Assembly (NCBI RefSeq): GCF_025384765.1
Contig: NZ_VHLL01000004.1
Span: forward strand, 124,001 to 188,000
Direction: 5' to 3'
Length of the DNA: 64,000 nt
DNA from: Methanoculleus formosensis
GTDB lineage: Archaea > Halobacteriota > Methanomicrobia > Methanomicrobiales > Methanoculleaceae
Below, one piece after another: positions 24,543 to 44,185 of the stretch. Positions within the stretch are counted from its first letter, which is position 1. Each line of letters starts with the position of its first letter. The notes under the pieces were generated by a model, which did not search any database, was not told the origin of the DNA, and saw only the letters and a program-made list of their open reading frames with translations. The position numbers and the translations under genes are program-made.

Positions 24543-26888
24543 TTGCTATTTTTTAAGTCAGTTATTGTAAAGAATAGAAGGGCGTTGCTTGTTTATCCCT
24601 CGAATAAGATGACGATAACGCCTCTTCTGGCACTTGAAGCCCTCTATTACCGCCTGCATGAAAAAAAACTGCCATCTGGGCGCAATCGGTTGGTGATTTT
24701 CAGCAGCCGAGTCGAACTCCGGCAGGACATCAAATATCATTTTACTTCGTTGAGAGCAGGAACGATGCCCATATATCTCGATGCCTTTCTCTTAGGCAGG
24801 GTTACCTCCAAAGGCGAGGTTGTCAACGTAACGCCGAAGAACGGCGAGCCAAAACTAATAATCTCTCCAGGTGTTGCGGCTCTGCCCAACAGTGATGTCG
24901 CAAGGAGCATATTCGGTGCAATTATTGAGGCAACACCAGATATAAAAGAAGAGCAGGCGCAACAGATATTTAGATGGGCCCAACTGAATAAAATACCTTG
25001 CTTATTTGTTGTATCTCCTGATCCGCCCACTGAATTAGCCCGAACATTGATTGGAAAGGGCATTATCTACTGGGGATGGGAACCCGAGTCACTTGTGGAA
25101 GACTGTCGGGCTGATGAGGCAAACCTCAAAAAAGGTATTTTCAGCTTAGATCACCCATTCTGCAGAAACTACAAAGAGATCCGCAACAAGGCCATTGGTG
25201 TTAAAAAAATCATCATACCGGTTAAAGAGCAGAGGCTCAACAAAATGCTCCTAGAGTTGCGGAAAGACTACTGGGAGCTCGCACGAGCTGCAGAGTCAAC
25301 CAACTCTCCACGCGCAGCAGATGTTACAAAAAGACTTCTTGGATGCATCTACGCTCTTGAAGAGATAACATCGCCGCTTGCATACGCGGAAATTGAGCTG
25401 AACAGACGATGGGGCACAATCCCAGTGAACCGGCGAATTGCTGCTCTTAAGACTCATTGTGAAGCGATACGGACTGAACAGCCCTTCTTTGTCTCCTTTG
25501 CGCTTCGCTCCGCAGATAAGGTGCTCGAAGCTTATGGATACATGGCGGACACAAAAACTGGAAAACATCCAATCATTATTCAGATCATCAAGGAGGCAGT
25601 TGCCAATGAAAAATCAGTTCTTTTTGTGTCTAAGAATGAAGCCCTTAATGAAGGGCTGAAGACATATCTCGAAGTTGAAAAAGAGTTGAGCATCTCAAAC
25701 CTCAAGAATCAAAGGATTGACTTCATTCCAGTCAGTCAAATTTACAGAAATGTAGCCGATGTAAATATCGTTGACACTTGTATCCTGTACGGCTGCCCTC
25801 GCTATTACCAGAAAGACATACTCTCCTACGCAAGAGCAAGGAGCATTGGAATCATTGCGTATGAGTCTGAAATTCCCGCAATAAAATACATTCAAAATGA
25901 GACAGATAATAGCCTGAGCTTTTTCTCCGATGCCTGCAAGGCAAAAACAATTGAGAGGCTTTTGGGTGCGAAACCCGACGGGAGAACTCCTAAAAAGAGA
26001 CCAAGGGAAGAAAAAAAGAACACTGCCCTCATCTTCATCGATCCTCAGGATGCAGAGATGGGAGAATTCGCTCCCAAAGAAATTTTTTCAGATTTTCTCT
26101 CCCTCGATTGGCGCATTGACTTTGAATATGCCAATGAAGCAGAGGCCAAATCAGCGGATCAGCGGCTAGGGAAAGGTCTCTCTGATGAGATAACCGCTGC
26201 AAAGATATCCCTCACTGGAGATCGTTGCATTATACTGCACGCAGAAAAAACAGTCCAGATATATGATAACTCTACAGATAAAGTCAAAGATCGTGAGGCA
26301 AAAAATCTTAAAAAGGGTGATTTTCTCATCCTTATTGAGAACTCTACCCGAAAATCTCTTGCAGAATCGGTCATCAGCAAAGTTGAGGCGCACCCTGCGA
26401 TGATGGAGGCTGTGGTGTATCAAAAGACGTGGGTGCATTATTTGAGGCAAGCCCTTGAGGAGAGTGGAGACACCTTCATCGAGATAATTCGTAAACTGCA
26501 GGAACATGGCGCCAAAGGCCCGTCTACTCCAGGTGCCATCTTCCAGTGGGTTAACGGGGCGATTATTGGCCCTCAAGATCTAGAAAACATTCGCAGAATC
26601 GGTATTATTTATGAAAAGCCATTTCTCGTAGCGAAATTCGGTGACATTGCACGGGCGATTCAGAGACTTCGGAACATACATCGCAGCCTCGCCCGAAGAC
26701 TAAATAAATTGATTCCACAGGCGGGGATCGAGGCAGATCTGAAGGATAAGGAGAACACGGTGATAGACAAAGAACTCGAACTCTATCTTGAGGATTTCGC
26801 AAACATTGTTTCAATTGAGCGTATTGAGGCAGTAGAGATTTTAGAGAACGTCTCATCGGGAGATTTGGACAAAGTCACGTATAATTGA
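24543..26888 (+). CDS. drmE: DrmE-like protein of class 2 DISARM
   Basis: 781 residues counted from a TTG at 24543, but the true N-terminus is uncertain: the frame is open back to 24309 and reads plausibly, yet it contains no ATG, GTG or TTG there. An ATG at 24299/24308 lies in another frame that ends near 24390. The protein shows RecA-like strands (RRALLVYPSNKMTI, SVLFVSKNEALNEGL, DTCILYGCPRYYQKDIL) but no clear Walker motif. The C-terminus is helical and charged. Identification rests mainly on size and position directly before drmA. Together with drmA, drmB, drmC and a cytosine methyltransferase it matches the class 2 gene list. Confidence 0.65.
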   Translation: MLFFKSVIVKNRRALLVYPSNKMTITPLLALEALYYRLHEKKLPSGRNRLVIFSSRVELRQDIKYHFTSLRAGTMPIYLDAFLLGRVTSKGEVVNVTPKNGEPKLIISPGVAALPNSDVARSIFGAIIEATPDIKEEQAQQIFRWAQLNKIPCLFVVSPDPPTELARTLIGKGIIYWGWEPESLVEDCRADEANLKKGIFSLDHPFCRNYKEIRNKAIGVKKIIIPVKEQRLNKMLLELRKDYWELARAAESTNSPRAADVTKRLLGCIYALEEITSPLAYAEIELNRRWGTIPVNRRIAALKTHCEAIRTEQPFFVSFALRSADKVLEAYGYMADTKTGKHPIIIQIIKEAVANEKSVLFVSKNEALNEGLKTYLEVEKELSISNLKNQRIDFIPVSQIYRNVADVNIVDTCILYGCPRYYQKDILSYARARSIGIIAYESEIPAIKYIQNETDNSLSFFSDACKAKTIERLLGAKPDGRTPKKRPREEKKNTALIFIDPQDAEMGEFAPKEIFSDFLSLDWRIDFEYANEAEAKSADQRLGKGLSDEITAAKISLTGDRCIILHAEKTVQIYDNSTDKVKDREAKNLKKGDFLILIENSTRKSLAESVISKVEAHPAMMEAVVYQKTWVHYLRQALEESGDTFIEIIRKLQEHGAKGPSTPGAIFQWVNGAIIGPQDLENIRRIGIIYEKPFLVAKFGDIARAIQRLRNIHRSLARRLNKLIPQAGIEADLKDKENTVIDKELELYLEDFANIVSIERIEAVEILENVSSGDLDKVTYN

Positions 26889-26897
26889 GGTAACCAC

Positions 26898-29800
26898 ATG
26901 CCAGGTTCACAAGGAGCAGACAACCTCGTCCGAGGCAGATTTGCAAGGGCGGTTTTGGCGAAAATTCGCCGAAGTGTTGATGGATCAGTTTCTGATAGAA
27001 TTCTCGATGAGAAGCCTTCGAGAAAACTCTTCATTGGAAATTTGAGTCCAAAAAAACCTCTTCCAGCGGTGTCATCCATCTACTCCAAAATCGCCCCCTC
27101 ATCCGCCGGCCTTGAGATTTTGATAAATAAAGATGATCTAGAAACCGCTAGGATTCGGATTCGGATCTCCGGGGTGTTTTACTACAAAGTATTCCCTAAA
27201 CGGGAAGAGCAACAGGAGATCTACGAGCAGGAAGATACAGGGGTTTACAGTCGAGATGCGGGAGGTCAAGACGAAGAATTTGAGGGTGAAGAGAGTGATT
27301 CTTCAGAGTCGGGGTACCGCCTGAGGACTGCATACAGGAAAATAAAGCCCAACCCTGTCGAAATTGAAGTTTTCCTATTGGATTTGATAAGTGCTGATTG
27401 GCATGGAGCGGGCACATTCCCAGAAGCAGAGCGTCTTGCTACGCAGGCGAGAGAGATTTTTGCAGATGATCCCAACAGGTTTCGAAGGCGGGCGCATTCA
27501 TCATCTGATAGGAGGGATAGGGAGCAGGAGGAGCTCGTCCCCAGATGCGTTCTTAAGGACGAAGAATCGTGGAGCGGCTTCTTGAACGATTGGGGAACAA
27601 GCATCCCCGAGCCGAGTTGGAGTGTCCAGTTGTCATATCGGGCCACAGATTACAGCGATGACTGCATCAAACTGACCCTGCTTTTGGAAAACGTTGTAGA
27701 GGAGAAAAAAGAACAAAACGACGTGGAAAACTCAATATTTGAGACTGAGATGTCTGCTAAGCCGATCAACTTTGCATTCCAAGATTATATCCTTGAGTAT
27801 CTCCGGGATGACTATAAGCATGAGGGAAACATCCATGCAGCCGGAGTTAATTGCTCCATTGTAAAAGAGGATGGGGTTATCCGCATCGAGCATATGCCTG
27901 TATTTGTTCAGAAAAAATACAAATCACAGGAACCGATAAATCTGAACTTCTCCAGCCTTGCGAAAGATCCAATCCCAGTTCTGATGACTCTCCATCAATT
28001 GATGGAAGAAGAGGTTATGAGACTTGAAACTGCATTCCAGAGCCGCACAGATCTGACCGCTAGGGGACGCCACTGCTTGCGGGATGATTTAGATCAGTTC
28101 ATTGCAGAGACAAGGCGCTTCAAATGCGGGGTAGAGCGGCTTCAGACTGACGATGAGGCGATGGAAGCGTTTTCCCTGATGAACAGGGCGTTTGCACAGT
28201 CAAGCAAAGGCTTTGATTCATGGCACCTCTTCCAGATTGTTTTTATTGTCATGGAAATACCCGATATCTTAGCAGCATCAGGACGCGGCAGTTCGGACAC
28301 AGCAGCTGATGTTGACTTGATATATTTCCCGACTGGGGGAGGAAAGACAGAGGCGTACCTCGGCCTTGTGGTGTTTACTATCTTCTTTGATCGGCTGAGA
28401 GGCAAAAAGGAGGGGGTTTCCGCTATTACAAGATTCCCGCTTCGTCTCCTCTCGCTGCAGCAGCTTCAAAGAATTGCGGATATCTTCGCCCAAGCCGAGA
28501 AGATCCGGAGAACTCACTCGGTTATTGGAGGCCAGTGCTATGCGCCTTTCAGCACAGGATATTATGTTGGCCAAGGGAACACCCCCAATAAGGTCTATGA
28601 GGGCGGTTCGCGATTCAACGGAGTGAAAGATGAGATTACTCCTATCAATACGGATTCAAGCCTGCGGGAAAAGTATAAAATTATCTCCTGCTGCCCATTC
28701 TGCGGTAAAGAGTCTATAGAACTTCGCGGAGAAACCGCTTCGCTTCGAATTATCCATAAATGCACCAATCCAGAGTGCGGTGAAGAGATTCCAGTGTATA
28801 TTTCGGATCAAGAAGTATACCGATATCTCCCGACATTTATTATCGCAACACTTGACAAGATGGCAACTGCCGCTTGGAGCAAGGAATTCAAGTCGATATT
28901 CGGTAAAGTTTCTGGAAAGTGCCCCCAACACGGATTTGTCATAGGGGAACACTGCCTATATAAAAAGAAGCATTACCACAATGAGGATCCGAACCTCTGC
29001 ACCGTTGAGCATTACCTGCCCGTAAACCTGTATGATCCGGTTCCATCGTTAATCATTCAGGATGAAATGCACTTAATAAGGGAATCTCTTGGAACATACG
29101 ATTCGCATTATGAAACGTTCTTAGAGCACTATATCCAGGAGTTGGCAAAGGGAAAGCCGGTCAAAATAATAGGGTCTTCTGCAACGGTGACAGATTACGG
29201 GGAGCAAATCCGGCATCTTTACATGAAAAAAGGCCATCAATTCCCTTCAAATCGGTCATTCTATGCCTGGGAGGATGAGGAGGAAACAGCACGGCTCATT
29301 GCTGGTGTCATGCCTCACAATAAAACCGTAATTTACGCGGTGCTGGATATTCTAAAACTGTACTATGAGGAAATTTATGAACTGAAGAATAATCCTCGCA
29401 GAGCGCTTGAGATGAATGTCGGTTTTTCTTCAGAGGAGGAAGTGCGTGCAACTCTCAGAGATTACGATTTAGGGCTGAGTTACAACCTCGTCAAACTCGA
29501 GGGAGACGCCGTTATTCAGTCGATCAGAACTATGGTCAATGTAGATCTCAGAAAGAAAGGCATCCGTGAAATGGCAACTGCTCCAATGACAGGCGATGTC
29601 ACGTTTAGCGATGTGAAAGGAGTGCTCTCAACCGTAGAAAGTGAGACACCCGGAGCCAAACTTGATCTCATCGTTGCAACGAGCATGATATCACATGGGG
29701 TAGATATCGACAAAATGAATTTCATGGTCTTTCGCGGGATGCCGAGGAATATGGCGGAGTATATCCAAGCCTACAGCCGTGTCGGGCGAAAGTATCCTGG

Positions 29801-30326
29801 AGTTATATTTGTTGTTTTCAACCCGGCTCGAGAGCGGGATCAGAGTTACTACAAATATTTCGAGAAATATCACGAGTACAAAGACGTTCTCGTTGAACCA
29901 GTTCCTCTGAATCGATGGGCAAAATTCGCCGTAAATCGGACACTGCCAGGAATATTCTCTGCCTGCGTAATCAACTTCCTTGAGAAATCTCCCGAAGTAA
30001 GCCCATACATGTCCGGGGATTTCCGAAAAGCGTTTGAATCAAGGCGGATTTCTATCGCCCAGATTACCGAATTCGTGCTCTCATGCTATAACTGCAACGG
30101 CCAGGATATGGGACCGTATTTTGAAAAATACATCAGAGAGCGAGTGCAGGACTATGTGGATCAAATACTCAGCACCGATGGTAATCGATTCATTCCATTC
30201 GTATTGTCTGACACCCCTATGAACAGCCTCAGAGATATGGATATCCCTATAGAAATTGCACCAACCCGTGAAAGCTTTGACCCGATGAGAATGGTGAGTG
30301 TTCAGTATTCTAGGAGTGTGGAGTAA
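26898..30326 (+). CDS. drmA: DrmA, SF2 helicase of DISARM
   Basis: 1142 residues starting nine bases after drmE. Walker A FPTGGGKTEAYL is near residue 477, the DEMH box (IIQDEMHL) near 720, motif III GSSATV near 757 and motifs V/VI ISHGVDIDKMNFMVF with QAYSRVGRKYPG near 930-960. Between motifs I and II is a zinc-binding insert (CCPFCGKE, CTNPECG). The N-terminal 450 residues have no known motif. In DISARM, DrmA with DrmB forms the DNA-binding complex that recognises unmodified phage DNA. All helicase motifs look functional. Confidence 0.9.
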   Translation: MPGSQGADNLVRGRFARAVLAKIRRSVDGSVSDRILDEKPSRKLFIGNLSPKKPLPAVSSIYSKIAPSSAGLEILINKDDLETARIRIRISGVFYYKVFPKREEQQEIYEQEDTGVYSRDAGGQDEEFEGEESDSSESGYRLRTAYRKIKPNPVEIEVFLLDLISADWHGAGTFPEAERLATQAREIFADDPNRFRRRAHSSSDRRDREQEELVPRCVLKDEESWSGFLNDWGTSIPEPSWSVQLSYRATDYSDDCIKLTLLLENVVEEKKEQNDVENSIFETEMSAKPINFAFQDYILEYLRDDYKHEGNIHAAGVNCSIVKEDGVIRIEHMPVFVQKKYKSQEPINLNFSSLAKDPIPVLMTLHQLMEEEVMRLETAFQSRTDLTARGRHCLRDDLDQFIAETRRFKCGVERLQTDDEAMEAFSLMNRAFAQSSKGFDSWHLFQIVFIVMEIPDILAASGRGSSDTAADVDLIYFPTGGGKTEAYLGLVVFTIFFDRLRGKKEGVSAITRFPLRLLSLQQLQRIADIFAQAEKIRRTHSVIGGQCYAPFSTGYYVGQGNTPNKVYEGGSRFNGVKDEITPINTDSSLREKYKIISCCPFCGKESIELRGETASLRIIHKCTNPECGEEIPVYISDQEVYRYLPTFIIATLDKMATAAWSKEFKSIFGKVSGKCPQHGFVIGEHCLYKKKHYHNEDPNLCTVEHYLPVNLYDPVPSLIIQDEMHLIRESLGTYDSHYETFLEHYIQELAKGKPVKIIGSSATVTDYGEQIRHLYMKKGHQFPSNRSFYAWEDEEETARLIAGVMPHNKTVIYAVLDILKLYYEEIYELKNNPRRALEMNVGFSSEEEVRATLRDYDLGLSYNLVKLEGDAVIQSIRTMVNVDLRKKGIREMATAPMTGDVTFSDVKGVLSTVESETPGAKLDLIVATSMISHGVDIDKMNFMVFRGMPRNMAEYIQAYSRVGRKYPGVIFVVFNPARERDQSYYKYFEKYHEYKDVLVEPVPLNRWAKFAVNRTLPGIFSACVINFLEKSPEVSPYMSGDFRKAFESRRISIAQITEFVLSCYNCNGQDMGPYFEKYIRERVQDYVDQILSTDGNRFIPFVLSDTPMNSLRDMDIPIEIAPTRESFDPMRMVSVQYSRSVE

Positions 30327-32155
30327 TGCAGAGGGGAAAAAGCCAGGTTCTCTTCCGCTATCTGCCTGAATGTGTCATTGATCATTCTGATACGCAGGCA
30401 ATTGCGAAGATTTCGGCATGGAATTCGATCAGATCTGAGTCAACCAATGAATCCCGCCTAGCATCAGAGATCCTGCACCGCCTTGAGCGCTTTGGAAGAA
30501 AGCGTGGATACCCTCAAAGCCCTCGCGCAAGTTCGTTTGTATTTTTGGAGCCGAGTGCAATTGAAGCCGATCTCTTTCCACTGACGTTTATCTGCAACGA
30601 GTGCGGCAAAGCCTACTCATTTGACAGCATTGAGAGATTTAGGAATCAATTCACGCGCAGTGGGTACCGTTGCACATGCGGCGGCGGACTGAGGCAGTTG
30701 GACTTGATCAACTATCACATCTGCGGCAAAGTGTCGAGCTTGCGGGTGCGAGGATGCCCCACTCATGGATTCAGTCATATCGTGCTTCAAACCGGCAACA
30801 GCAGCCGCATTTCCAATTGGCGGTGGAGGTGTAAAATATGCGGGGTCGAAACGGGCAAGGTGATGGGGTGGTGTGACGAATGCAATCAACCAATGGAAAC
30901 CGCTCCGTTCAGAAAAAGCCAAGTGTTCTATCCGCACTCAATTTCATTAATCAATACAAAAGGCATCAGCAGTTCAGAGAGTTACGACAACCCAGACACT
31001 CTTAGACTATACATTGCGCAATACCTTGGAGTAATTTCTCCTGAAGATTACGCCGACTATCAGGACACTGCTAGAGCCGATTCAAAGCAAGAAGAGGCAG
31101 AGCGGATCAGACAGAATATGATACAGAAAGGTATACCTGAAGAGATTATCCGGCAGGTTATCGGCACTCCCTCCGGTTCGGATCGGCACCAGAGGAGGCA
31201 AGAAGCTCTTCAGGAGGCAGAAAGGGGTCTTTCACTTGATAATGATGCTTTAACTGCTATTGTCTCGTCATTGCAAAGTTTCCAGGATACGATTGCCCTT
31301 CCAGGCTCAAAAGAAGTGAATAAAGTTCTGAGTGAAGCGCAAGCAAGAAACGATCCGAATCTTTCAAGGATTGCACGGTTCCCAGATGCTCTCAAGCGGG
31401 CCGGCATCAGCGAAGCATACGTTGTAAACGATCTTCCTGTCATCTCTGCAGTCTTTGGCTACTCACGATCCACCACAGATCCTGGAGAATGCGTACTCCG
31501 CGGATTTGCCCCAGATACTAAGTATCCCGATAAAACACCCGTATACGTCAACCCAACAGAGACTGAGGGAATTGTGATTGTTTTCGATCGGTGGAGAATT
31601 CTTCGCTGGCTTCAGGAGAATGAATTTATTTCGGAGGTCCCAAACAGAAACGACGAGAGAGAACTCAAACAATGGTTCCTCAGAAACATTAAAACAAGCG
31701 ATATCCCAGTTTATGATGAGATCTCAAGTGCTTTTGCAGAGACAAAATTGGTTTACACCCTCATCCATACAATATCTCACACTCTGCTGAGAAAAGGCGC
31801 CGGCCTTGTGGGCATGGATAAGGACTCACTTGCAGAGATAATCTTCCCAGAAGTCCCTGCAGTTGCAATCTACACAAACAATGCCCATGATTTCCAAATC
31901 GGCGGCATGCACACTCTCTTTGAGACGGGCATTATCCCTTGGATCGATATGGCCTTTGAGAGCGCTGAAACCTGCCTGTATGATCCCGTCTGCATCTCAT
32001 CTGATGCATCCTGCCACGCCTGCCTGCACATAAGCGAGATATCATGCGTACACTTCAACCGTGATCTCGGCAGGCACTATCTGGTTGGGCGGGAGAATGA
32101 ATGCGGCCGCTTGCTGGGATTTTGGGAGCATGAATTTATCAAAAAGGTTGAATAA
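30326..32155 (+). CDS. drmB: DrmB, DUF1998 protein of DISARM
   Basis: 609 residues; the ATG overlaps the drmA stop by one base (TAATG). The N-terminal third carries several cysteine pairs (FICNECGKAYSF, CTCGGG, RCKICGVE, WCDECN) for zinc binding. The C-terminal third is DUF1998: HTISHTLLRKGAGL near residue 480, then IYTNN, GGMHTLFE and the cysteine set CLYDPVC to CHACLH. DrmB partners DrmA. Order, overlap and domain identity make this assignment strong. Confidence 0.92.
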   Translation: MQRGKSQVLFRYLPECVIDHSDTQAIAKISAWNSIRSESTNESRLASEILHRLERFGRKRGYPQSPRASSFVFLEPSAIEADLFPLTFICNECGKAYSFDSIERFRNQFTRSGYRCTCGGGLRQLDLINYHICGKVSSLRVRGCPTHGFSHIVLQTGNSSRISNWRWRCKICGVETGKVMGWCDECNQPMETAPFRKSQVFYPHSISLINTKGISSSESYDNPDTLRLYIAQYLGVISPEDYADYQDTARADSKQEEAERIRQNMIQKGIPEEIIRQVIGTPSGSDRHQRRQEALQEAERGLSLDNDALTAIVSSLQSFQDTIALPGSKEVNKVLSEAQARNDPNLSRIARFPDALKRAGISEAYVVNDLPVISAVFGYSRSTTDPGECVLRGFAPDTKYPDKTPVYVNPTETEGIVIVFDRWRILRWLQENEFISEVPNRNDERELKQWFLRNIKTSDIPVYDEISSAFAETKLVYTLIHTISHTLLRKGAGLVGMDKDSLAEIIFPEVPAVAIYTNNAHDFQIGGMHTLFETGIIPWIDMAFESAETCLYDPVCISSDASCHACLHISEISCVHFNRDLGRHYLVGRENECGRLLGFWEHEFIKKVE

Positions 32156-33039
32156 TGACGTTTGAAACAGCATTCAGATTGAAAGATCCCAATGCTGTCC
32201 GGAAGACCGAAAAAGCCGTACTGTCTCTGGCAGAGGGAGGGCTCCTCATTAGAGGAGCGGATATACTAACTGGAGTTGAGAGGGAGATATCCCTGCCCGT
32301 CAACTCCGGCCTGCTGTATGATCTGATCTCAGGCGGCGTTATTGTTAGCCGGCATCCTTCTAGGAATATTGAAGATTATTTGTTTGAATTGAATCTCGAT
32401 GTTGCAGGAGAATTTTTCCAGAGAGAATCTTTTGCAGCGGAAGTTGTGCAACAGTATGAAATGCGCAGGTCCAGCACGAAGCCGCTTGGGATCTCATATG
32501 CAGCGACGGTCCCGATTGAGTTTCCGAATGCCGCTGAAGGCTTTGAGGAGATAGAGCCCGCTTTAATACGCCTTGTCACTGAAGCTGAGAGAGACTTGTG
32601 GATTGTAAATCCCTTCTTTGATGAATACGGCGCACAGCGCCTCCTCCCTTCAATGATCGGAGCAGCGAGAAGCGGCGTAAAGATATGGATACTTGGGAGG
32701 CAGCTGGGGAGAGCATCTGGACCGGGACCGAATGCAGCTGTCCGGGATGTTGCATCAGTGTTTATTCAAGAGGAACTGGCGCCCAGGCTTGAGATCAGGG
32801 ATTTTTATCGCCAGGATGAACAAGGCCATCAACTTTATGCACTCCACACTAAGATGATGATCGCTGACGAATCGATAGCCTATATCGGAAGCGCGAACCT
32901 AACGAGGCACTGCCTCCGCAATAATTTTGAACTGGGTGTCATCCTGAGAGGCGAAGGTGTCCGCCCTCTTACTGATTTGACAAGAAGCCTTTGGTGTGAA
33001 GCAGAATCTATCGATCTAAAAGAACTAGTGGATTTGTGA
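32155..33039 (+). CDS. drmC: DrmC, phospholipase-D-family nuclease of DISARM
   Basis: 294 residues; its ATG is one base into the drmB stop. One HKD motif is obvious: ALHTKMMIADESIAYIGSAN around residues 230-248. Active PLD nucleases need two HKD motifs, so it should dimerise. The preceding half contains the LWIVNPFFDEYG strand and the RSGVKIWILGRQ element of the fold. In DISARM, DrmC is accessory; loss is tolerated against some phages in the studied bacterial system. Confidence 0.9.
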   Translation: MTFETAFRLKDPNAVRKTEKAVLSLAEGGLLIRGADILTGVEREISLPVNSGLLYDLISGGVIVSRHPSRNIEDYLFELNLDVAGEFFQRESFAAEVVQQYEMRRSSTKPLGISYAATVPIEFPNAAEGFEEIEPALIRLVTEAERDLWIVNPFFDEYGAQRLLPSMIGAARSGVKIWILGRQLGRASGPGPNAAVRDVASVFIQEELAPRLEIRDFYRQDEQGHQLYALHTKMMIADESIAYIGSANLTRHCLRNNFELGVILRGEGVRPLTDLTRSLWCEAESIDLKELVDL

Positions 33040-33043: not shown

Positions 33044-34966
33044 ATGGGATGTGGATGGATATCAACCCTGCCTGAATTTCTGGACGCACCTGCGGAGGAA
33101 ATTCTTGAGTCATTGAAAAACTTTATCGGCGAGAGAAATCCCTCACAGGAGATCGCATGGAGCAACAGCATTGCAGTAATGCAACAACAGTTTCGCCGGC
33201 TGCTTGATCTTAATGCAGATACAGCTGGTTATTCTGTTATCCTGGAATATGAACTCCCAAGAGAGGGCGGGAGGCGACCAGATGCTGTCCTGCTCGGAAC
33301 AGGGTTCATAGCAGTTCTTGAATTTAAGGATAAGAGGGACCCTAAATCTTCAGACATTGATCAGGCTGTTGCATATGCCCGGGACTTGAAGAACTATCAT
33401 TCGGAGTCCCATACAGCAGCATTTTACTCGATACTTGTTCCAACAAAAAACAGTGCGGCCCCTGTCATTAAGCCGTCTGCCCTAATAATATCGCCGCATT
33501 TTCTTGCTGACGAGATAAATGTCATCAGCAGAGCGCATAATGGGCCCCAAATTAATGCTGAAACATGGGTTCAAGGAGAGTACGAGCCTTTGCCGACGTT
33601 AATTGAGGCTGCATACCGGTTATTCAACAGTCAGCCCCTATCACAGATCAGGAGTGCAAAAAGTGCTAACATTCCTGAAACGGTCAAACGTATTGTCGAT
33701 ATATGCTATGAAGCGTCGCAGACGGGTACTCGTCACCTAGTTTTGCTGACGGGAGCGCCAGGAGCAGGGAAGACGCTGGTAGGGCTGCAGATTGCACATA
33801 CTCCAGATCTCAAAGAGCTTACAGTCGAATGCGACACACGAAGGAAAGGGGCTCCTGCAGTCTTTCTATCTGGCAATGGCCCTTTGGTGAACGTGCTTCA
33901 AGATGCTCTTAAACAGAAATCTGGAGACAGAGCCCCTCTTGTGAAGGGAATAAGAGCATATCTAAAGTACCATTGCTTCGAAAGGCCGCAGTCGATACCC
34001 CCAGAACATATTCTAATATTTGACGAAGCCCAGCGTGCTTGGAGCTCTGACCTTGTTTACAAAAATCATAAGGCAGAAGTATCTGAACCGGACCTCCTGC
34101 TGAGCATTGCAGAGAAGATCCCAGAATGGAGCGTCATTCTTGCGCTAATTGGTGAAGGGCAGGAGATTTATCAAGGGGAGGAGGGTGGAATTCAGCAATG
34201 GGCGGATGCCTTAAGCAAATGTGATACCGCAGCATGGCAGGTCCACTGTCCACCGCATTTGAAAGATGCTTTTGCAGCCACAACAACTTCCTGCAACAGC
34301 GACCCCTTCTTGCATTTGAATGTCTCTTTGCGGACCCACCAGGCCGAAACGCTCCATACATGGGTCGCTCTTCTCCTAAACAACCCGCTTGACAACCTGA
34401 ATGCGCTTCAGCGAATGGCTAGTGAGATCACTGCATCTGGTTACCCCCTATATATCACCGACAGCCTTGATGCCGCAAAGGCATATGTCCGTGAGCGTTA
34501 TGCCAACAGTGATAAGCGGTTTGGGCTGCTCGCGTCACGGTATGCAGGTGGTCTCCAGCAGATTGGCATCGATAATACACAATACTGGGGACGAGAAAAC
34601 CGCCATAAAAACCTGAACTACATTCGATGGTTCAATGCAAATCCTCGTGAACCTGAATCCTGCTGCTCTCTCTCCAGGCCAGCTACAGAATTTGAATGTC
34701 AGGGTTTAGAGGTTGATTTCCCTGTTTTGGTATGGGGGGACGATTACACCTTTGATGGGGAGCACTGGGACGCTAAAATGCGGACTACCGCACGGATCAA
34801 GGATGTGCGGACAATCCGAATGAATGCATATCGTGTGCTGATGACGCGAGGACGGGATGGACTGTGTGTTTATATTCCAATTAATAACAGCAAGTTTGCC
34901 AAACCGCTTAAGCAGACTTATACCATTCTCCACCAGTCAGGTATGAGAGAACTGCAGAAGATCTGA
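33044..34966 (+). CDS. nuclease-DUF2075 ATPase/helicase fusion, DISARM accessory
   Basis: 640 residues, five bases after drmC and so in the same operon. N-terminal PD-(D/E)XK-type nuclease features: RRPDAVL near residue 78 and AVLEFKDK near 90-96, giving D and E-x-K. The middle and C-terminal part is DUF2075, an SF1-like ATPase: Walker A TGAPGAGKTL near 238-247, Walker B LIFDEAQRAW near 325, and RVLMTRGRDGL near 598. It is not part of the standard DISARM list. A DNA-end processing or nuclease effector role is inferred. It converges with the large helicase on the other strand. Confidence 0.8.
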   Translation: MGCGWISTLPEFLDAPAEEILESLKNFIGERNPSQEIAWSNSIAVMQQQFRRLLDLNADTAGYSVILEYELPREGGRRPDAVLLGTGFIAVLEFKDKRDPKSSDIDQAVAYARDLKNYHSESHTAAFYSILVPTKNSAAPVIKPSALIISPHFLADEINVISRAHNGPQINAETWVQGEYEPLPTLIEAAYRLFNSQPLSQIRSAKSANIPETVKRIVDICYEASQTGTRHLVLLTGAPGAGKTLVGLQIAHTPDLKELTVECDTRRKGAPAVFLSGNGPLVNVLQDALKQKSGDRAPLVKGIRAYLKYHCFERPQSIPPEHILIFDEAQRAWSSDLVYKNHKAEVSEPDLLLSIAEKIPEWSVILALIGEGQEIYQGEEGGIQQWADALSKCDTAAWQVHCPPHLKDAFAATTTSCNSDPFLHLNVSLRTHQAETLHTWVALLLNNPLDNLNALQRMASEITASGYPLYITDSLDAAKAYVRERYANSDKRFGLLASRYAGGLQQIGIDNTQYWGRENRHKNLNYIRWFNANPREPESCCSLSRPATEFECQGLEVDFPVLVWGDDYTFDGEHWDAKMRTTARIKDVRTIRMNAYRVLMTRGRDGLCVYIPINNSKFAKPLKQTYTILHQSGMRELQKI

Positions 34967-35022: not shown

Positions 35023-38000
35023 CTATTCCTCGCCCCTTTCGGGAATATAGGTGAGGATTTTGACTTCATGTCCATCTATACTAGCAGCCCCGATTTGAGT
35101 TCTGCAGAGATCTCTCAGGACTTTCCAGAGCAGCGCTGAATTATAGTAATCAAGATCAGATGGAACATAATTGATCAACTCTTCTGAGCAAATTACAATC
35201 AGGCGCTCCTCTGATCGAGTGAAAGCAACATTTGTTCTGTTTAGATTGAGAATGAACTCAACATTGCTGCTGATGGCAGAGGGATCGCTGACTGTTGCTG
35301 ATACAATAACCGTTGGGCGCTCGCCACCTTGCAGGCGCTCAACAGTGTCAATAATATCGATAGAATTATTGTCTATAAACAGATCGGTCAGTTGGCTCCT
35401 TTGAGCTTTATATGGAGTAATGATAGCAACGGAGCTGACTGGCAGATTATCTCCTGCTTGTATGATCTCCTGGATTATCTTTATTTCAACGGTGTTGTAT
35501 CGCCGGGATTCCTGTTCTGAGTGAAGCACAAGATAAATGCCGCTACCGCCACGCCAAATACATTCCCATGAACCCAAATCGTCCGCTTGGACGTTTGAAA
35601 CAGACTTTTTAACCCCTTCTAGAGCAATGCCATCCATTTTATATATGCGAGAAATTAACTCGACAATCTGAGGGGGGAGTCTGAACGTGCGGTTTAATCT
35701 TGATACACAAAGTGAACTCTGCGAAGGCGCTTCACTTGCTTCACTGAGATTTAATATTGACTGGAACGCGCTTAAATGCGGCTGATAGTACACAACGGGA
35801 GGTCGGTCTTCGTCCTCCCAATCGTGTGCAACAATTGGAGCAAGCTGACGGTGATCTCCAACGAGCATAATCTCACCGTTCTGCCTCACAAGTTTAGCAA
35901 GCGCAAGGAAATGGGGAAACACCATCATACTGGCTTCATCCACAATGAGGATTGATACACTGAAGCCGCCTAGGTTTTTGTATTGTTTGCCTCCATCGAG
36001 TTTATTAGCCATTTTCAGGATAGTGCTCGTTGTTCCTCCAATTATTACCACTGAATTTTTAGTCAGATTATCAACTTTTCTCTTGCAAGAATCTGCATTG
36101 ATATTTTCAATTGGAGCGGGAGCTGGATGCTCCCCCATCTTTTCCCGGTTTGAGTGCACTTTGGCTATGGTAATATAGGGGCATTTCAAGCCGTCCTTGG
36201 AAGAACATTGAAGAAATTCTTCTCTGTTTTGTGCCATTTTATTTAGTAGATTATTAACCGCGGTATGTGTATGCGCCGCAACCAGAACTACGTCTCCAAC
36301 ATCGCAACGATTTAGTATCCGCATGAGAACTGCTACGGAGGTGGTTGCAGATTTACCCGTGCCGGGGGGGCCTTGCAGCAATTGAATTCGTGTGTTGAGG
36401 CCGTCTAATATTCCCTTCTTCTGGTCATCTGAAAGCGGATATCTATTATGGAAGCTAAATCCATTAACTAAGGAAGAGTATGTTTCCATCACGTGGGCTT
36501 CAATCGGCTCCTTTTCAGCGATATTTGGGCTTTTGGGGTCAAACCATTCTCCCACATGGTTTGACCGAGGCGAGAGAAGTTTCTCCTCAACTCTGCCTGC
36601 TACATAGTCCGACACATTTTCATCGATAGTGGCAAAAGGAAAAACAACCTCATTTGACGGGTATCCTCGGCTAGATAACAGATACCTTGACTCTCCAGAG
36701 TATATAACATGGAGAACAACTTCCCCGGTGCTCCAGTCTATCGATGTAATGGTGCAGGTGCTTCCTCCACGACGGAGCTGACCTATCGTTTGCCCCCGGT
36801 TTGGATCCCCTAAGCATGGACTCAGTCTGACGAAGGAACCCTCCCCAAATGCGCAACGCTTTCGCAATGACGCGAGATCGATATCGTAACCATCCAGTAT
36901 TATTTCTGCCTCAAGATCAGTTGAACTAGTGGAAAACACATTTCTTAATGGAATGGTTTTTCCTGAAGGAACCCTATTAATAGACGGCAATAGATTCTCT
37001 GAGATCCAGTTGGCACACTTAATGTAATGATCCAACTGCAGAAAATCGATTGCAGAATCGATAGCATGCGACACGTCCAGATTGAATACTTTCAGTTTGT
37101 CAATATTTAAGTGAGGCTTTTCGAGATCAGGATTTTTATTCTCGATGTTCTCCTCGATCCAGCGGAGTGCTGTTGCCCTGGCCTCTAAGTAAGCCTCTAT
37201 CATACCTGTTGCACTGCCTGCTCTTAGGTATCTCGAAAGATGCTCTCTTCCAAATTCGTCCAGGTCCGGGTCATCAAGGTCTGGAAGCATTGGGGATTGC
37301 CAATAGGCATGCCAATATGGGAGCGTTAAATTATCTTCAAATCGGCTACGCATTTCGAATAAATGCTTGCATCCCTCATCTTTCTTCTTAGCCCATTCAC
37401 TGGTTTCTGGCCAGTAGTTCAACTTCGTTTTAAAGTCAAATATATCCTGAGTGAATAAACGGTCTAGAAAAACAGTTTCACCATCCACTTCCCTGCGCCA
37501 ATGATAGTGCCTTCCAAACCAAGGGAGCGATGCAACGACAGAAAGGCCGCGCCCTGTCCAGCCAAGGGCAAATCTCCTATCAACCTCTTGCTGAACACAG
37601 GAGTATATCAGTTGTTCTAATCCTGCTCGGCAACCGAGCAATTCATTTAGATGGCTTAGAAGATTTGTATTGACTCTGGCGCATGCATCAACAAGCCTCT
37701 TCATTTCGATGGGTGACCAAACATAGAAATGAATCGGCGCCATTTTTGGTTTTGATGCGACAAGGGATGAAATTGCCCTTACCAGCTCGTAAAAGAAGTC
37801 ATGAATCAGGGATTCTTCAACGCCGTTATCATGCAACATCTCTCCAGTCCACTCGCGTCGGATTGTCTTAAGAACAACCTTGCTGAAGTTCTCATTAAAT
37901 TCAGAATATTCGTACTGACGTTTGCCATCTGGCCATTTGCCTTGATATCTTCGTTCCTGCAAGTGGGGTATGAACAGGGGTTTCTTCTGTTCGTCAAATA

Positions 38001-39204
38001 TAATTGGGGTATGGACTTGGCCATCACTTCTGGTTACATGTGCAGCAAGGGCAAGGAGCCGGTTTTCGGCATAATCATACTCAACCGCCAAGTAGACTCG
38101 GATTAGACGAGTTCCATTTTGGTCGTGCTCAGGGAGTTGACTTTGAATATGATAGCCATAAGACCATACAGGAAATGTTTCTGGATCTTCCTCCCCTCCA
38201 GGCAGAGTCTTTCTCCGGACCCTTGCTTTGTTGATAAGATGATCAAGATTCTCATTAAACCCAGGATCCGCTCTAATGCACTGTGCGACTGGGCTGTCAG
38301 CGTCGAGTTGAGCTAAATCATCAATACTGTTTATGCCATTTCTGCGCAGAACTCGGACGATTGAAGCATTTGCTGAGATCAACTCAATTCTTCGGAAGCG
38401 TGCGCTTTCTGGGAAGCACTGGATGTTATAGATGCACCCATCACACTTCTTCTCCAGTTGGTAACTCAAATCCTGCAGATTTGAACGGACAATTCGATCG
38501 AGTTTTCCATCGGATGCGAGCATCCGCCGAAGATCCTCTTCTTCCCGTTCAAGATTGGGAATTGGTTCAAGATCCTGAATGCCCTGTATGCTGTTAGTTG
38601 TCTCGTCTATTCTCGCCACAATGCATTTTATATTCTCATCGCGCACACGAGTTCCGTTGATCCACACGCCCTCATCCTGAATCATCTTGAGGAGTATGAG
38701 CCGATAGAGGGAGACCTGCATCCGATGATAAGTCTGGTCGCTCCTGCTGGCTTTGCATTCAACCAGCAACACAATCGGGCTCCCGTTTTCCCACCTGACA
38801 AGAACGAAGTCGATATTACCTTTCAGATGGAATGCTCCGAGGGATGTGTCGACATGGATTTCGCGTCCATATGCTTTCTTATCAGGAGTTAAATTTTGGA
38901 TTTCGTGGTAAAAATCATCCCAATGGGTTGCTCTTTCAGTTTCTATTTTGCCCTGGATATTTGTTACGTCGTTATAGCCGCTTTTTTTGAGTGTTTTTTC
39001 CCACTCATCCTCAAACATTCTTCCTCTTTTCTGTAAAATTAAATCAAGAGGATTCAGCCTTCGAGTAAAGAACGGTACATCTTTCCTTATTTCTGCATCG
39101 TGAGTTACTAGAAAGAAACGACGTTCGCAGGAATCACACCGAATAAATTCTCCAACATCAGTTACTTTAATATCTGTTGTATATTCGCTGTCGTTTTCAC
39201 CCAT
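35023..39204 (-). CDS. Dna2/Cas4-like Fe-S nuclease fused to SF1 (UPF1-like) helicase
   Basis: 1393 residues. N-terminal RecB/Cas4-type nuclease: CDSCERRFFL at residues 19-28, GNIDFVLVRW near 130, VECKASRSDQTYHRMQ near 148-162, and a trailing CDGCIYNIQC near 255-264, so the four cysteines for a 4Fe-4S cluster are in the Cas4/Dna2 order. About 650 residues without motifs follow. The C-terminal SF1B helicase has GPPGTGKSATT near 948, IVDEASM near 1086, GDHRQLAPIV, ITPYKAQRSQL and LNRTNVAFTRSEERL near 1324. Dna2 relatives cut 5' flaps and resect ends. In this block it would be an additional nuclease for invading DNA; that is inference. Confidence 0.85.
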   Translation of the reverse strand: MGENDSEYTTDIKVTDVGEFIRCDSCERRFFLVTHDAEIRKDVPFFTRRLNPLDLILQKRGRMFEDEWEKTLKKSGYNDVTNIQGKIETERATHWDDFYHEIQNLTPDKKAYGREIHVDTSLGAFHLKGNIDFVLVRWENGSPIVLLVECKASRSDQTYHRMQVSLYRLILLKMIQDEGVWINGTRVRDENIKCIVARIDETTNSIQGIQDLEPIPNLEREEEDLRRMLASDGKLDRIVRSNLQDLSYQLEKKCDGCIYNIQCFPESARFRRIELISANASIVRVLRRNGINSIDDLAQLDADSPVAQCIRADPGFNENLDHLINKARVRRKTLPGGEEDPETFPVWSYGYHIQSQLPEHDQNGTRLIRVYLAVEYDYAENRLLALAAHVTRSDGQVHTPIIFDEQKKPLFIPHLQERRYQGKWPDGKRQYEYSEFNENFSKVVLKTIRREWTGEMLHDNGVEESLIHDFFYELVRAISSLVASKPKMAPIHFYVWSPIEMKRLVDACARVNTNLLSHLNELLGCRAGLEQLIYSCVQQEVDRRFALGWTGRGLSVVASLPWFGRHYHWRREVDGETVFLDRLFTQDIFDFKTKLNYWPETSEWAKKKDEGCKHLFEMRSRFEDNLTLPYWHAYWQSPMLPDLDDPDLDEFGREHLSRYLRAGSATGMIEAYLEARATALRWIEENIENKNPDLEKPHLNIDKLKVFNLDVSHAIDSAIDFLQLDHYIKCANWISENLLPSINRVPSGKTIPLRNVFSTSSTDLEAEIILDGYDIDLASLRKRCAFGEGSFVRLSPCLGDPNRGQTIGQLRRGGSTCTITSIDWSTGEVVLHVIYSGESRYLLSSRGYPSNEVVFPFATIDENVSDYVAGRVEEKLLSPRSNHVGEWFDPKSPNIAEKEPIEAHVMETYSSLVNGFSFHNRYPLSDDQKKGILDGLNTRIQLLQGPPGTGKSATTSVAVLMRILNRCDVGDVVLVAAHTHTAVNNLLNKMAQNREEFLQCSSKDGLKCPYITIAKVHSNREKMGEHPAPAPIENINADSCKRKVDNLTKNSVVIIGGTTSTILKMANKLDGGKQYKNLGGFSVSILIVDEASMMVFPHFLALAKLVRQNGEIMLVGDHRQLAPIVAHDWEDEDRPPVVYYQPHLSAFQSILNLSEASEAPSQSSLCVSRLNRTFRLPPQIVELISRIYKMDGIALEGVKKSVSNVQADDLGSWECIWRGGSGIYLVLHSEQESRRYNTVEIKIIQEIIQAGDNLPVSSVAIITPYKAQRSQLTDLFIDNNSIDIIDTVERLQGGERPTVIVSATVSDPSAISSNVEFILNLNRTNVAFTRSEERLIVICSEELINYVPSDLDYYNSALLWKVLRDLCRTQIGAASIDGHEVKILTYIPERGEE

Positions 39205-39388: not shown

Positions 39389-40552
39389 TTATTCGCTACG
39401 ATCTATGAGCATCCTTTTAATCTGCTCCGCAATGGCCTTTGCCATCAGTGGAGGCACAGCATCAGCAACCTGCTGATACTGTGAGTCACGGATGCCTTTG
39501 AACTCGTACCAGTCGGGGAATGACTGCAGGCGGGCAGCTTCCCTCACCGAAAGCCCTCGATTCTGGCGTGGGTGAATGAACATGCTTTTCCTGACGTTGT
39601 TAATAGTAGGACTCGGCTCATCCTCTTTTAGACGCCGGTATATTCCAGAGTGACATCTACTTTTGTCCTCGTAGTTCTTAAGCAGATGATCGGGAATACT
39701 CTCCCAGTTTTCCCCTTGCTTGATGTGCTTGTAGCGCTCTAGGACGATATCGCTGCTCTTTGTCGTATTGTGATTCAGCACCTGCGATGACAAAATACTC
39801 CAAAGTGGCGTTTCCCGCATCTGCCTCGCGTAACTGCTCAAATGCTCTGCTTCAGGATACTCATACACATCCTGCAGGCAGCCTGGCTCTGCCTCAGGCA
39901 GATCGAACAGGGCATCCTGCACGGCAACTGCCTTGTCAACGGTCCTCACTGGAAATTTGATTCTGCCACCGTATTCGGGCTTCAACTTCTCTGGTTTTAT
40001 TCCAATGATAATGACTCGTTTTCTTGTCTGCGGGACGCCATACTCAGAGGCATCCAGGATCGCTTTATCCATAACGTATCCGAGCTCATCATGGAGTTTC
40101 TTCTCAATATCTTCGATGATCCCCCCTTTTCCCATTGACAGGAGCCCAACTACATTCTCAAACATGAAGAAATCTGGCTGGAGAGTTTCAACTAACCTAA
40201 TATAATCCTTATATAGGCTATTATATGGATTTTCAGGATTCCGTGTTTTGGTATTTGCTGACGAAAAGCCTCGGCAAGGCGGACCGCCGATAATTCCCTG
40301 AATGCGGAAATTTTTCGCTTCAAAAGTCTGTAAAATCTTATCCGATTCTACAGTTCTAATGTCCTTTGCTTCCGCGCAATGATAGTTGTCTTCGCCCTTG
40401 GCCTCGTGTATTTTCGCGTGATTCAATCTTATCGTATTTAGAGCATCTGGATTGACATCCATGGAGTAGGCGATATCAAATCCCGCCAGTGCAAAGCCCA
40501 AGCTAAGTCCGCCGGGTCCGCAAAAGATATCCAGTACTCCATTTTTTTGCAT
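39389..40552 (-). CDS. drmMII: DNA (cytosine-5) methyltransferase, DrmMII of DISARM
   Basis: 387 residues. All main C5-methyltransferase motifs are seen: motif I DIFCGPGGLSLGF (8-20), motif IV GGPPCRGFSSAN with catalytic Cys93, motif VI FENVVGLL (ENV 132-134), motif VIII QTRKRVIIIG (175-184) and the C-terminal motifs IX/X (SPTINNVRKS, LSVREAARLQSFPDWY). Class 2 DISARM uses such an enzyme to protect host DNA. The recognition sequence depends on the variable region about 230-310 and cannot be read from sequence. It has its own promoter and points away from the right boundary. Confidence 0.93.
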   Translation of the reverse strand: MQKNGVLDIFCGPGGLSLGFALAGFDIAYSMDVNPDALNTIRLNHAKIHEAKGEDNYHCAEAKDIRTVESDKILQTFEAKNFRIQGIIGGPPCRGFSSANTKTRNPENPYNSLYKDYIRLVETLQPDFFMFENVVGLLSMGKGGIIEDIEKKLHDELGYVMDKAILDASEYGVPQTRKRVIIIGIKPEKLKPEYGGRIKFPVRTVDKAVAVQDALFDLPEAEPGCLQDVYEYPEAEHLSSYARQMRETPLWSILSSQVLNHNTTKSSDIVLERYKHIKQGENWESIPDHLLKNYEDKSRCHSGIYRRLKEDEPSPTINNVRKSMFIHPRQNRGLSVREAARLQSFPDWYEFKGIRDSQYQQVADAVPPLMAKAIAEQIKRMLIDRSE

Positions 40553-40980
40553 GCTAGTTCACTAGTGTGTACAGTTTAGTATTTACTATTTAAAAGATAT
40601 CAGCCTTGCTTTGTGTTGCGTAGACATTCTGCCGATTGCTCAACTCAAGATGATTATCAGCCACCCGCACACTGCCACCGCAATATCCAGTTCGCAACAT
40701 AGTATGGCCACACCTGCTCCCGCCAGGCCGGACCGGTCTGCTCCTGTGGCAGCTCCGCGTTCCTCCTGAGCTGCCAACGTCGTTTCTTATGTGAAGGGGA
40801 AGGTTAAGTCGCAAAGATAACGTTAGACTTAGTCCCCGATATCACCATGTCCGGCAGATTTGGAGTAACCACTGCTATGAGTTATGCCCTAAACTCAGAA
40901 TGAAAAACCCAAGCCAACAAAACACTCAGAAAAACAACAGGGACCGGGCGGGAACTGAAAACTCCGCCCCCAAACAACCC
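40553..40980. other. right edge of the A/T-rich block
   Basis: No gene in 428 bases. Base composition changes from A/T-rich to GC-rich at about 40640-40700. At 40960-40990 C-rich runs precede the end of the ATPase gene. I see no tRNA end, direct repeat or integrase here, so the mode of insertion remains open. Confidence 0.5.
40586..40598 (-). promoter_or_regulatory. TATA box of the methyltransferase gene
   Basis: On the minus strand CTTTTAAATAGT lies about 38 bases before the ATG at 40552, a suitable distance for a short leader. The surrounding bases are A/T-rich. Confidence 0.5.
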
Positions 40981-42636
40981 CTAACCCCCCACCCCCAGCT
41001 CCTCCGACCCCGTAATCGCCCGGACAATGCCGGCAACGACCGCCCGCTCTTCCGGCTGCAGCCTCGTGTAATACAGTCGCGTATCCTTCGCCTCGACGAT
41101 TGCCACGGCATCCGCGACCGGCTTCAGGAACTCCTCCCACCCGGCGCCCCCGGACACGATGATCTCGCGGACGGCGCTCCCGACCGCGGAGACCTCCCCC
41201 TTCCTTGCGAGTCGTTTCAGGAACCCTGCCGTCATCCTCCGTGCCGTTGCCGGGTCCAGGCGGCCCGCGTGCCCATACACCGCCCGGATCAGCGAGAGGC
41301 CGTTTGCCCGGTTCCCGGCCAGCAGTTCCTCGCCCGCGAGATCGAGCGCGAGGTGCACGAACTGGTCCGGGTCGTCGGGCTCTTCCCCGGCCTGCAGCGC
41401 CGCGAGCACATCCACCCGCCTCCCGGCCGCGGTCCGGGCCGGCAGGGCAACGCCTTCCATAACACCCGACGCCCCCCGGTGCGTTGTATCGACGGCTGCC
41501 GGCCGCTCATGCCAGACCTCCAGGAACCCGATGAGGGCAAACACCCGGTCCCGGCCGGCCGGCGTTCGCATCGCCCGCCACAGCGCGAAAATCCTATCCC
41601 GGGCCTCGTAGGTCGTCCTCTTCTTCATCGGGCGGGAGACGACGTAGCCCTCGGCCTCCAGCCGCCGGAGCTGCGCGTTCACCGTCGCGAGGTTCAGCCG
41701 GGCGCGCTCTGCGACGTCTTTGGGCGTGAGCGGGGTCTCTGCGGCGAGGATCGTGTCGAGGATGAGCCGCCGCTGCCCCGGAAGCCTCCGGAAGACCTCC
41801 CGGTAGTAGGGCGTCTGCTCGTCCGCCAGCTGAAATAAGGCCTCCGCCGCCTTGCCTGCTCCGCACAGCGAGAGGATCTCGCAAGCCCGGACCACCAGCC
41901 CCGGGTTGCCGCCGACGAGGTGCCAGAGGGCCTCGATGCCGGACTCGTAGTCGCCGAAGTGCTCGATGAAGGCGGTGTTGCCGTCGACCTCCGCGACCCT
42001 CCGCATGAGGTCCTTTGATTCGGCGCAGTCGAGCTCCCGGAGGTGAAAGACCCGGAAGAAGTTGTAAAACGGTTCCTCGTGATCGAGGACGCCGGGAAAG
42101 AGCGACGGCGCCGACGCGATGACCGAGAGGTTATCTGCCCGCTGGAAGACCGACCGCAGCGCCCGGACCTCGGGCCTCCCCATCTGGGAGAAGACATCGT
42201 GGATGTTCTCGACGAAGACCACGACCTGCCTCTCCCCGGCCGATGCGGCGATCCTCTCGACCGCGGCCTCGCGGACCAGCGAATCCTCGCCGAGCGCGGC
42301 CACATCGGAGGTCTCGACCCCCATCCCCGCGAGCACCTGGAGAAAGAAGTCGGAAGCCCTGAATATCGAGTACTCCTCCCCTGCAAGGTTTACCGGGATC
42401 ACCCGGCCGGAGAGCCCATCAAGCATCCTGTGGCAGAGCAGGCTCATCAGGTGGGACTTCCCGGCGCCCCGGTCCCCGACCAGGAGGAAGAACCGCGGCG
42501 TCCCGGAGCCGGACGCCCGGTCCATTTCGTCGAACAGGCTCCCCAGGAGTTCCTGCCGGCCGACGAGAAGGTGCTCAAACGTCTCCCTCTCAAGGGCCGC
42601 GGGGAAAGAGCGGTAACACCTACCAGGTGCCGGCAT
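40981..42636 (-). CDS. P-loop ATPase with winged-helix domain
   Basis: 551 residues. Walker A GDRGAGKSH (54-62), Walker B-like VVVFVENIHDVF near 137, and an AAA/STAND-type lid (GGNPGLVVRACEIL near 245). A winged helix follows near 300-350 (TPKDVAERARLNLATVNAQLRRLEAEGYV). The C-terminal 180 residues are helical without a known domain. It overlaps the end of the upstream ATPase gene by 17 bases. The make-up resembles archaeal Orc/STAND-like signalling ATPases. A role in defence is possible from position beside DISARM but not shown. Confidence 0.75.
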   Translation of the reverse strand: MPAPGRCYRSFPAALERETFEHLLVGRQELLGSLFDEMDRASGSGTPRFFLLVGDRGAGKSHLMSLLCHRMLDGLSGRVIPVNLAGEEYSIFRASDFFLQVLAGMGVETSDVAALGEDSLVREAAVERIAASAGERQVVVFVENIHDVFSQMGRPEVRALRSVFQRADNLSVIASAPSLFPGVLDHEEPFYNFFRVFHLRELDCAESKDLMRRVAEVDGNTAFIEHFGDYESGIEALWHLVGGNPGLVVRACEILSLCGAGKAAEALFQLADEQTPYYREVFRRLPGQRRLILDTILAAETPLTPKDVAERARLNLATVNAQLRRLEAEGYVVSRPMKKRTTYEARDRIFALWRAMRTPAGRDRVFALIGFLEVWHERPAAVDTTHRGASGVMEGVALPARTAAGRRVDVLAALQAGEEPDDPDQFVHLALDLAGEELLAGNRANGLSLIRAVYGHAGRLDPATARRMTAGFLKRLARKGEVSAVGSAVREIIVSGGAGWEEFLKPVADAVAIVEAKDTRLYYTRLQPEERAVVAGIVRAITGSEELGVGG

Positions 42637-43807: not shown

Positions 43808-43833
43808 GTACGACACCTGACAGATCAAGTGTA

Positions 43834-43863
43834 TAACAAATCTGTTATATAACAAATTCGTTA
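43834..43863 (-). promoter_or_regulatory. two tandem inverted repeats around the TATA box of the ATPase operon
   Basis: TAACAAATCTGTTA (43834-43847) and TAACAAATTCGTTA (43850-43863) are near-identical dyads 16 bases apart. Between them the bases form TGTTATATAACA, a 12-base palindrome that holds the likely TATA element (TTATATAA) about 40 bases before the ATG at 43807. Binding of a dimeric regulator to both would block TBP, so repression is expected. The regulator is unknown; the downstream ATPase contains a winged helix and is a candidate. Confidence 0.65.
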
Positions 43864-44113
43864 TTCACCTGCCGGGCCTGCTTCTCCCGGGGAGCGGGGG
43901 GGCGGCACCATCCTTTGTGCCAGCGTATACGCGAGCGGCACCTGGACAGGAGACCGGAAGAATGGCAGTGGACCGCGACGGCAGGCGGCCCCGGGAGCAG
44001 AGGCGACCGTTCTCCAGAGCAAGAGAAGTGCTGGAACAGTTGACTAGAAACGCCTTGCGGGCAGAGGCTACGCGAGATGCATCTCACGGAAAAACACTGT
44101 CAAAAGAACAACA
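43864..44113. other. intergenic region between ATPase operon and tRNA-Ala
   Basis: 250 bases without a credible gene. A G/C-run at 43885-43910 may fold. Nothing else is recognised. Confidence 0.4.
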
Positions 44114-44185
44114 TGGACCGAGCGGGAATTGAACCCGCGGCCTCTTCCATGCCAAGGAAGCGATCTACCCCTGATCTATCGGCCC
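44114..44185 (-). tRNA. tRNA-Ala(GGC)
   Basis: On the minus strand the acceptor GGGCCGA pairs with TCGGTCC, D-stem GATC/GATC, anticodon stem CTTCC/GGAAG with loop TTGGCAT (anticodon GGC), T-stem GCGGG/CCCGC with loop TTCAATT. A discriminator A follows; CCA is partly encoded (A then TGT on the plus strand side gives ACA, so not full CCA). No intron. Confidence 0.92.

Follow-up and report, generated by a model that had tools for sequence, protein, structure and literature searches.

The window analysed here is a stretch of 64,000 nucleotides of Methanoculleus formosensis (contig NZ_VHLL01000004.1, positions 124,001 to 188,000), in which the genes of a DISARM locus are found together with a gene encoding a predicted nuclease fused to a helicase (P0001, hereafter the nuclease-helicase; Table 1). 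This gene consists of one uninterrupted open reading frame (ORF) of 1393 amino acids (aa) on the minus strand, with its start at 39204 and its stop at 35023, and the plus strand across the same positions contains many stops. The C5-cytosine DNA methyltransferase gene lies 184 bp upstream of it on the same strand, and both are convergent to the run formed by the drm genes and a Schlafen-group-3 helicase gene (hereafter S41). An earlier note, made from the sequence alone, had placed the nuclease-helicase between the drm run and the DISARM methyltransferase gene drmMII; this position was confirmed, with the S41 gene also following drmC.

Table 1 Features of the DISARM locus and of the nuclease-helicase in the window
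Feature	Position	Strand	Basis
drmE	24543..26888	+	PF24957, NF038316, PADLOC DrmE
drmA	26898..30326	+	PADLOC DrmA 654 bits
drmB	30326..32155	+	PADLOC DrmB 281 bits
drmC (PLD nuclease)	32155..33039	+	PADLOC DrmC 72 bits, PLDc_2
Schlafen-group-3 helicase gene, PADLOC candidate PDC-S41 (full-length match), 4 bp after drmC	33044..34966	+	
Bad/Dna2-like nuclease-helicase gene (P0001)	35023..39204	-	1393 aa, ORF + Pfam
SF1B UPF1/DNA2-type helicase core, aa 924-1345	35170..36435	-	AAA_11/AAA_12; best PDB sequence matches
Helical stalk + beta-barrel, about aa 710-895	36520..37077	-	Model secondary structure
Putative diverged RNase H-like domain, aa 351-695	37120..38154	-	AlphaFold2 model; hhalign; residue conservation
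Helical segment with helix-hairpin-helix (HhH)-like GI.(S/T).DDLA motif, aa 266-335	38200..38409	-	AlphaFold2 model; colinear with TM0106-helicase fusions
Iron-staple PD-(D/E)XK nuclease domain, aa 12-265	38410..39171	-	PDDEXK_1; residue conservation, 84 relatives
C5-cytosine DNA methyltransferase	39389..40552	-	PF00145

P0001 matched the Pfam families PDDEXK_1 (residues 64-263) and AAA_11/AAA_12 (residues 924-1341), and its best sequence matches in the PDB were DNA2 (5eaw, 5ean, 5eax), SMUBP-2, and UPF1/NAM7, with the DNA2 match falling in the helicase. Its cysteines are ordered as C26 (within CDSC) followed by C254-x2-C257-x5-C263, and its nuclease residues are E65, D132, E149-x-K151, and Q163-x3-Y167. 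Conservation was assessed in an 84-member family alignment, in which C26 was kept in 79 relatives (the other five having gaps), C254, C257, and C263 in 81-82, and the nuclease residues E65, D132, K151, Q163, and Y167 in 78-83, as were the helicase residues (Walker A K951, D1089/E1090, Q1120, R1175, Q1292, R1330). Judged from the alignment, the conservation of active site, iron-sulfur ligands, and motor is far above chance expectation. Both features of Bad (bacterial DNA2-like) and DNA2 proteins, i.e., a four-cysteine iron staple spanning a RecB-type nuclease and a C-terminal superfamily 1B (SF1B) helicase with full motifs, were present, and with nuclease and motor complete by their motifs, the protein would be expected both to unwind DNA and to cleave it. 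The earlier note's description of the protein as an SF1B helicase joined to an iron-sulfur nuclease of the Dna2/Cas4 type, with a Cas4-like cysteine order and the motifs of both enzymes in a single 1393-residue chain, is thereby supported by ORF, Pfam domains, and alignment. Regarding identity with Cas4, the Cas_Cas4 model scored 17.8 bits (under its cut-off of 22.7), and no well-scoring Cas gene was found among the neighbouring genes scanned. A phage origin was rejected, as phage records and viral contigs gave helicase fragments only and no full-length relative.

The roughly 650 residues between nuclease and helicase had been noted as unassigned, and residues 266-920 indeed matched no Pfam family. 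Nevertheless, residues 266-930 are conserved across 65 sequences, and structure prediction, which had been proposed for this region, was run with AlphaFold2 and returned confident models for residues 266-930 (predicted local distance difference test score (pLDDT) 90.9, predicted template modelling score (pTM) 0.88) and for residues 351-695 (pLDDT 92.5, pTM 0.92). In the latter, strands and helices follow the order beta-beta-beta-alpha-beta-alpha-beta-alpha, and alignment with hhalign to TM0106-helicase fusions carrying Pfam RNase_H_2 gave E=7.6e-6 (local) and E=1.6e-47 (full-length). The fold search of the PDB with the middle region returned no match at E<=0.001; its weak top matches included several RNase H-fold proteins (Argonaute PIWI, RNase H1, Cap18), in line with the profile alignment but no proof by themselves. 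RNase_H_2 gave no Pfam match in P0001, and the usual RNase H D-x-E is not conserved (D in 23 and E in 25 of the 84 relatives), while D377, E463, H492, and Y494 of the domain are nearly invariant. A diverged RNase H-like domain is hence supported by model and profile but not proven, since the fold search gave nothing significant. The stalk and beta-barrel that follow would correspond to the domain-1B region of UPF1/DNA2-type helicases, by analogy with the established architecture of these enzymes. The models thus resolve the middle into a putative HhH segment, a probable diverged RNase H-like domain, and a stalk with beta-barrel.

The origin of the gene was approached through related loci (L numbers denote loci, G numbers genomes). 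The island has a GC content of 45-48%, compared to about 60-65% in much of its flanks. In the sister species G092, the DNA is 93% identical on both sides (window 17976-20106 and 40974-44157), and the same site (L156 3484-16115; window counterpart 20106-40974) carries HsdM, HsdS, and HsdR of a type I restriction-modification (R-M) system. Since the sister species holds a type I R-M system between matching flanks, the locus is a spot of defence exchange, and the nuclease-helicase gene was acquired horizontally as part of an exchangeable defence island. Among the DISARM loci of the order, the two nearest (L113 and L114; DrmA 71% and 69% identical) have the gene order drmE-A-B-C-C5 methyltransferase-Vsr, with neither nuclease-helicase nor S41. 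The window methyltransferase is 56% identical to those of L113 and L114 and shares, over full-length matches, at most 29% identity with the ones that accompany other members of the nuclease-helicase family; therefore, it is the DISARM methyltransferase, orthologous to that following drmC. The nuclease-helicase is accordingly inserted between the DISARM genes drmC and methyltransferase, the simplest reading being that it and S41 were both added there and that the methyltransferase is now inverted.

Several further observations concern the island and the DISARM genes. The Vsr mismatch endonuclease gene that follows the methyltransferase in the related loci (L113 15491-15898, L114 5407-5889) was not noticed in the window locus. 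A Schlafen-group-3/S41 gene also lies directly upstream of a divergent drmA elsewhere in the order (L117 11607-13532) and is possibly a recurrent DISARM companion. In the window, positions 21075-22433 encode an AlbA_2/HATPase_c_4 protein, whose PADLOC matches are pAgo-type models over partial model length. Left of the island, four diverged copies (about 77-89% identity) of one sequence are found (14168-14403, 16470-16759, 19883-20122, 22836-23549), all of which match a single stretch of the G092 genome.

Neighbourhoods were compared for 80 relatives collected from GTDB genomes. The family tree separates clade I (48 rows including the window protein; cyanobacteria, planctomycetes, proteobacteria, actinobacteria, Bacteroidota, Bathyarchaeota, Methanomassiliicoccales, and two haloarchaeal plasmids) from clade II (haloarchaea, Chloroflexota, Acidobacteriota, and others). 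Each of the 14 C5 methyltransferases detected up to 10 kb from a clade I family gene lies within 1.75 kb of it, 11 of them at a distance of at most 180 bp or overlapping (binomial p=4e-7, assuming even placement and ignoring kinship). At this distance (1.75 kb), a C5 methyltransferase occurs in 13 of 51 clade I loci versus 1 of 29 loci of the other clade, and the linkage requires at least seven changes of trait on the tree. Restriction genes recur as well: a SacI-type restriction enzyme stands beside the family gene in L017, L020, and the Haladaptatus cassette L004, an HNH enzyme accompanies it in L028, and it follows HsdR-M-S (type I) in L032 and BREX genes in L044. In Pseudomonas (L043, L062), nuclease-helicase and C5 methyltransferase form compact two-gene cassettes. 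Clade I thus tends to be linked, repeatedly, to C5 methyltransferase and R-M genes. Separately, clade II or distant members and TM0106-helicase fusions were observed near Piwi proteins or Mre11-Rad50-like pairs (L008, L009, L011, L068, L079, L080, L127). In L130 (3229-12473), a RecB-nuclease/helicase fusion is immediately followed by Wadjet-like genes (DUF3375, DUF4194, and ATPase); the listed stretch contains no JetD, which the fusion possibly replaces.

By architecture, the closest known kind are the little-studied Bad helicase-nucleases, whose architectural features P0001 shares. Bad of Geobacillus stearothermophilus (WP_053413574) is a 1245-aa DNA2-like helicase-nuclease with an iron-sulfur cluster, 5'-3' helicase activity, and single-stranded DNA endonuclease activity; its conserved central region contained no known domain according to its authors, and its gene adjoins a type III-like methyltransferase gene. 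The authors suggested that Bad may belong to a new class of restriction enzyme (PMC7430649). Likened to this published description, the window protein has the N-terminal iron-staple RecB-family nuclease, the C-terminal SF1B helicase, and a central region that is conserved but has no counterpart in eukaryotic DNA2, and its gene is sporadically distributed and stands beside a DNA methyltransferase gene. It differs from Bad in length (1393 versus 1245 aa), in the distance between nuclease Asp and Walker Lys (819 versus 665 residues, with D132 taken as counterpart of Bad D150), and in its partner, which is a DISARM-locus C5 methyltransferase and not a type III Mod (N6-adenine). With eukaryotic DNA2 it shares the nuclease-helicase order and motifs, but its HhH and RNase H-like middle is additional, and it is island-borne and not ubiquitous. 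The TM0106-family RecB-like nuclease-helicase fusions (TIGR03491; plasmid loci L125-L128, with McrBC and Mre11-Rad50 as defence neighbours) are colinear with it over the full length and have the same order of folds in the middle; however, P0001 scored 15 bits against the TIGR03491 cut-off of 97.45 bits and lacks both a Pfam RNase_H_2 match and a conserved D-x-E. With DISARM class 2 (drmE-A-B-C-drmMII) it shares the locus and the adjacent methyltransferase, although by its distribution it is not a DISARM component.

With moderate confidence, we consider the gene to encode a horizontally acquired and apparently catalytically intact Bad-type helicase-nuclease that degrades invading DNA beside methylation-based self-marking, i.e., a module that can be separated and recruited rather than one of the core subunits of DISARM. 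The frequent adjacency of Bad-type genes to genes for DNA methylation suggests a part in destroying foreign DNA that lacks the mark. Most likely, the protein would act as a degradation arm coupled to such self-marking: by analogy with Geobacillus Bad, it would load at junctions of single- and double-stranded DNA, move 5'-3', and cut single strands, and would thereby break down invading DNA once nearby restriction systems, here possibly DISARM, have opened or cut it, while C5 methylation would spare the host chromosome. DrmAB is stimulated by unmethylated DNA, prefers 5' overhangs, and may recruit a nuclease (PMC9142583); therefore, cooperation with the window protein is possible, but it would be opportunistic because of the distribution of the family. 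The suggestion of a separate defence system nested in the DISARM locus is accordingly better supported as regards a separate module, with the qualification that the family adjoins methyltransferase and R-M genes and that several of its lineages have no defence neighbours. Several points weigh against a defensive role. In about two thirds of the clade I loci (those of cyanobacteria, planctomycetes, and Methanomassiliicoccales), the surrounding genes are mostly metabolic and include none recognised as defence genes, so that the defence linkage of the family is only partial; some of these loci share a conserved gene order, which together with the metabolic neighbours suggests a repair role in those lineages. 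The counts of methyltransferase linkage are not independent, because L028, L043, and L062 are close kin, as are L029 and L059. Moreover, the pairing in the window may be accidental, since its methyltransferase is of the DISARM lineage and not of that travelling with other family members. The possibility raised earlier that homologues lack defence neighbours applies to several lineages of the family.

The alternative that the gene is a working extra module of the window DISARM system, in which DrmAB would open unmethylated DNA and the nuclease, which DISARM itself lacks or takes from elsewhere, would come from the Bad-like protein, is rather unlikely. Its placement between drmC and the DISARM methyltransferase gene, on the strand of the latter, would fit this explanation, as would the properties of DrmAB, which prefers 5' overhangs and may recruit outside nucleases. 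So would G156, a second genome of the order (L120 3-11427; L157 = G156:C1:1731874-1735698), where a Dna2-like gene directly follows a DISARM-like operon of drmA, drmB, and a gene for a 1120-aa protein. This gene, a 1288-aa open frame, is of the other type, that of a 1259-aa Dna2-like protein conserved throughout the genus, to which it is 43% identical. G156 is the only one of 26 other DISARM-bearing genomes with a Dna2-like gene near DISARM. The flanks of the 80 relatives (about 1.1 Mb) contained no match to drmA, B, C, or E, the nearest DISARM orthologues run from drmC straight to methyltransferase and Vsr, and among 393 genomes of the phylum, DrmA was detected in 21 and the nuclease-helicase family in 14, with both only in the source genome. 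The earlier proposal of an extra module is, in the sense of a recurrent DISARM module, not supported by this distribution, and the remark that the gene is not among the listed DISARM genes holds. Recent surveys of BREX and YprA/DISARM do not mention DNA2 or UPF1. A broader version, which we regard as doubtful, is that Bad-type helicase-nucleases serve generally as restriction effectors linked to methylation, plugged into C5 R-M, type I, BREX, and DISARM systems, and that one of them here supplies the DNA-degrading enzyme missing from DISARM.

It is also unlikely that the gene is a passenger carried by chance or a damage-control gene repairing host breaks caused by restriction systems. The hotspot with its exchanged content and the many relatives without defence neighbours agree with these readings, as do the Mre11-Rad50-like genes accompanying several members of the distant clade, which would be expected for break processing; yet the tight placement of methyltransferases and the repeated R-M and BREX partners exceed the expectation for even placement, and the nuclease active site is fully retained. 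That the gene is the housekeeping Dna2 of the cell is highly improbable. Although the domain order is that of DNA2, the host encodes the 1259-aa Dna2-like protein mentioned above (G000:C3:204268-208044). Each of the 29 genomes sampled from the genus has this second gene (most at 71-92% identity), as do 43 of 150 genomes from the order; the window gene, in contrast, occurred in none of the 198 other sampled genomes of the order and is unique to the source genome. The two proteins align by BLASTP in nuclease and helicase only, at about 25% identity. A housekeeping identity was rejected on these grounds, and the case foreseen in the earlier note of a housekeeping Dna2 as the sole copy fails with this conserved second gene. 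The 1259-aa gene (L121 3269-7045) is vertically inherited and adjoins small genes resembling HEPN/nucleotidyltransferase types by eye.

For the Bad-type helicase-nucleases, the link of this clade to C5 methyltransferases and restriction enzymes, the confident model of the middle region, and the movable Pseudomonas cassettes make the restriction hypothesis directly testable. Along with this hypothesis, it becomes testable whether DISARM can borrow a helicase-nuclease.

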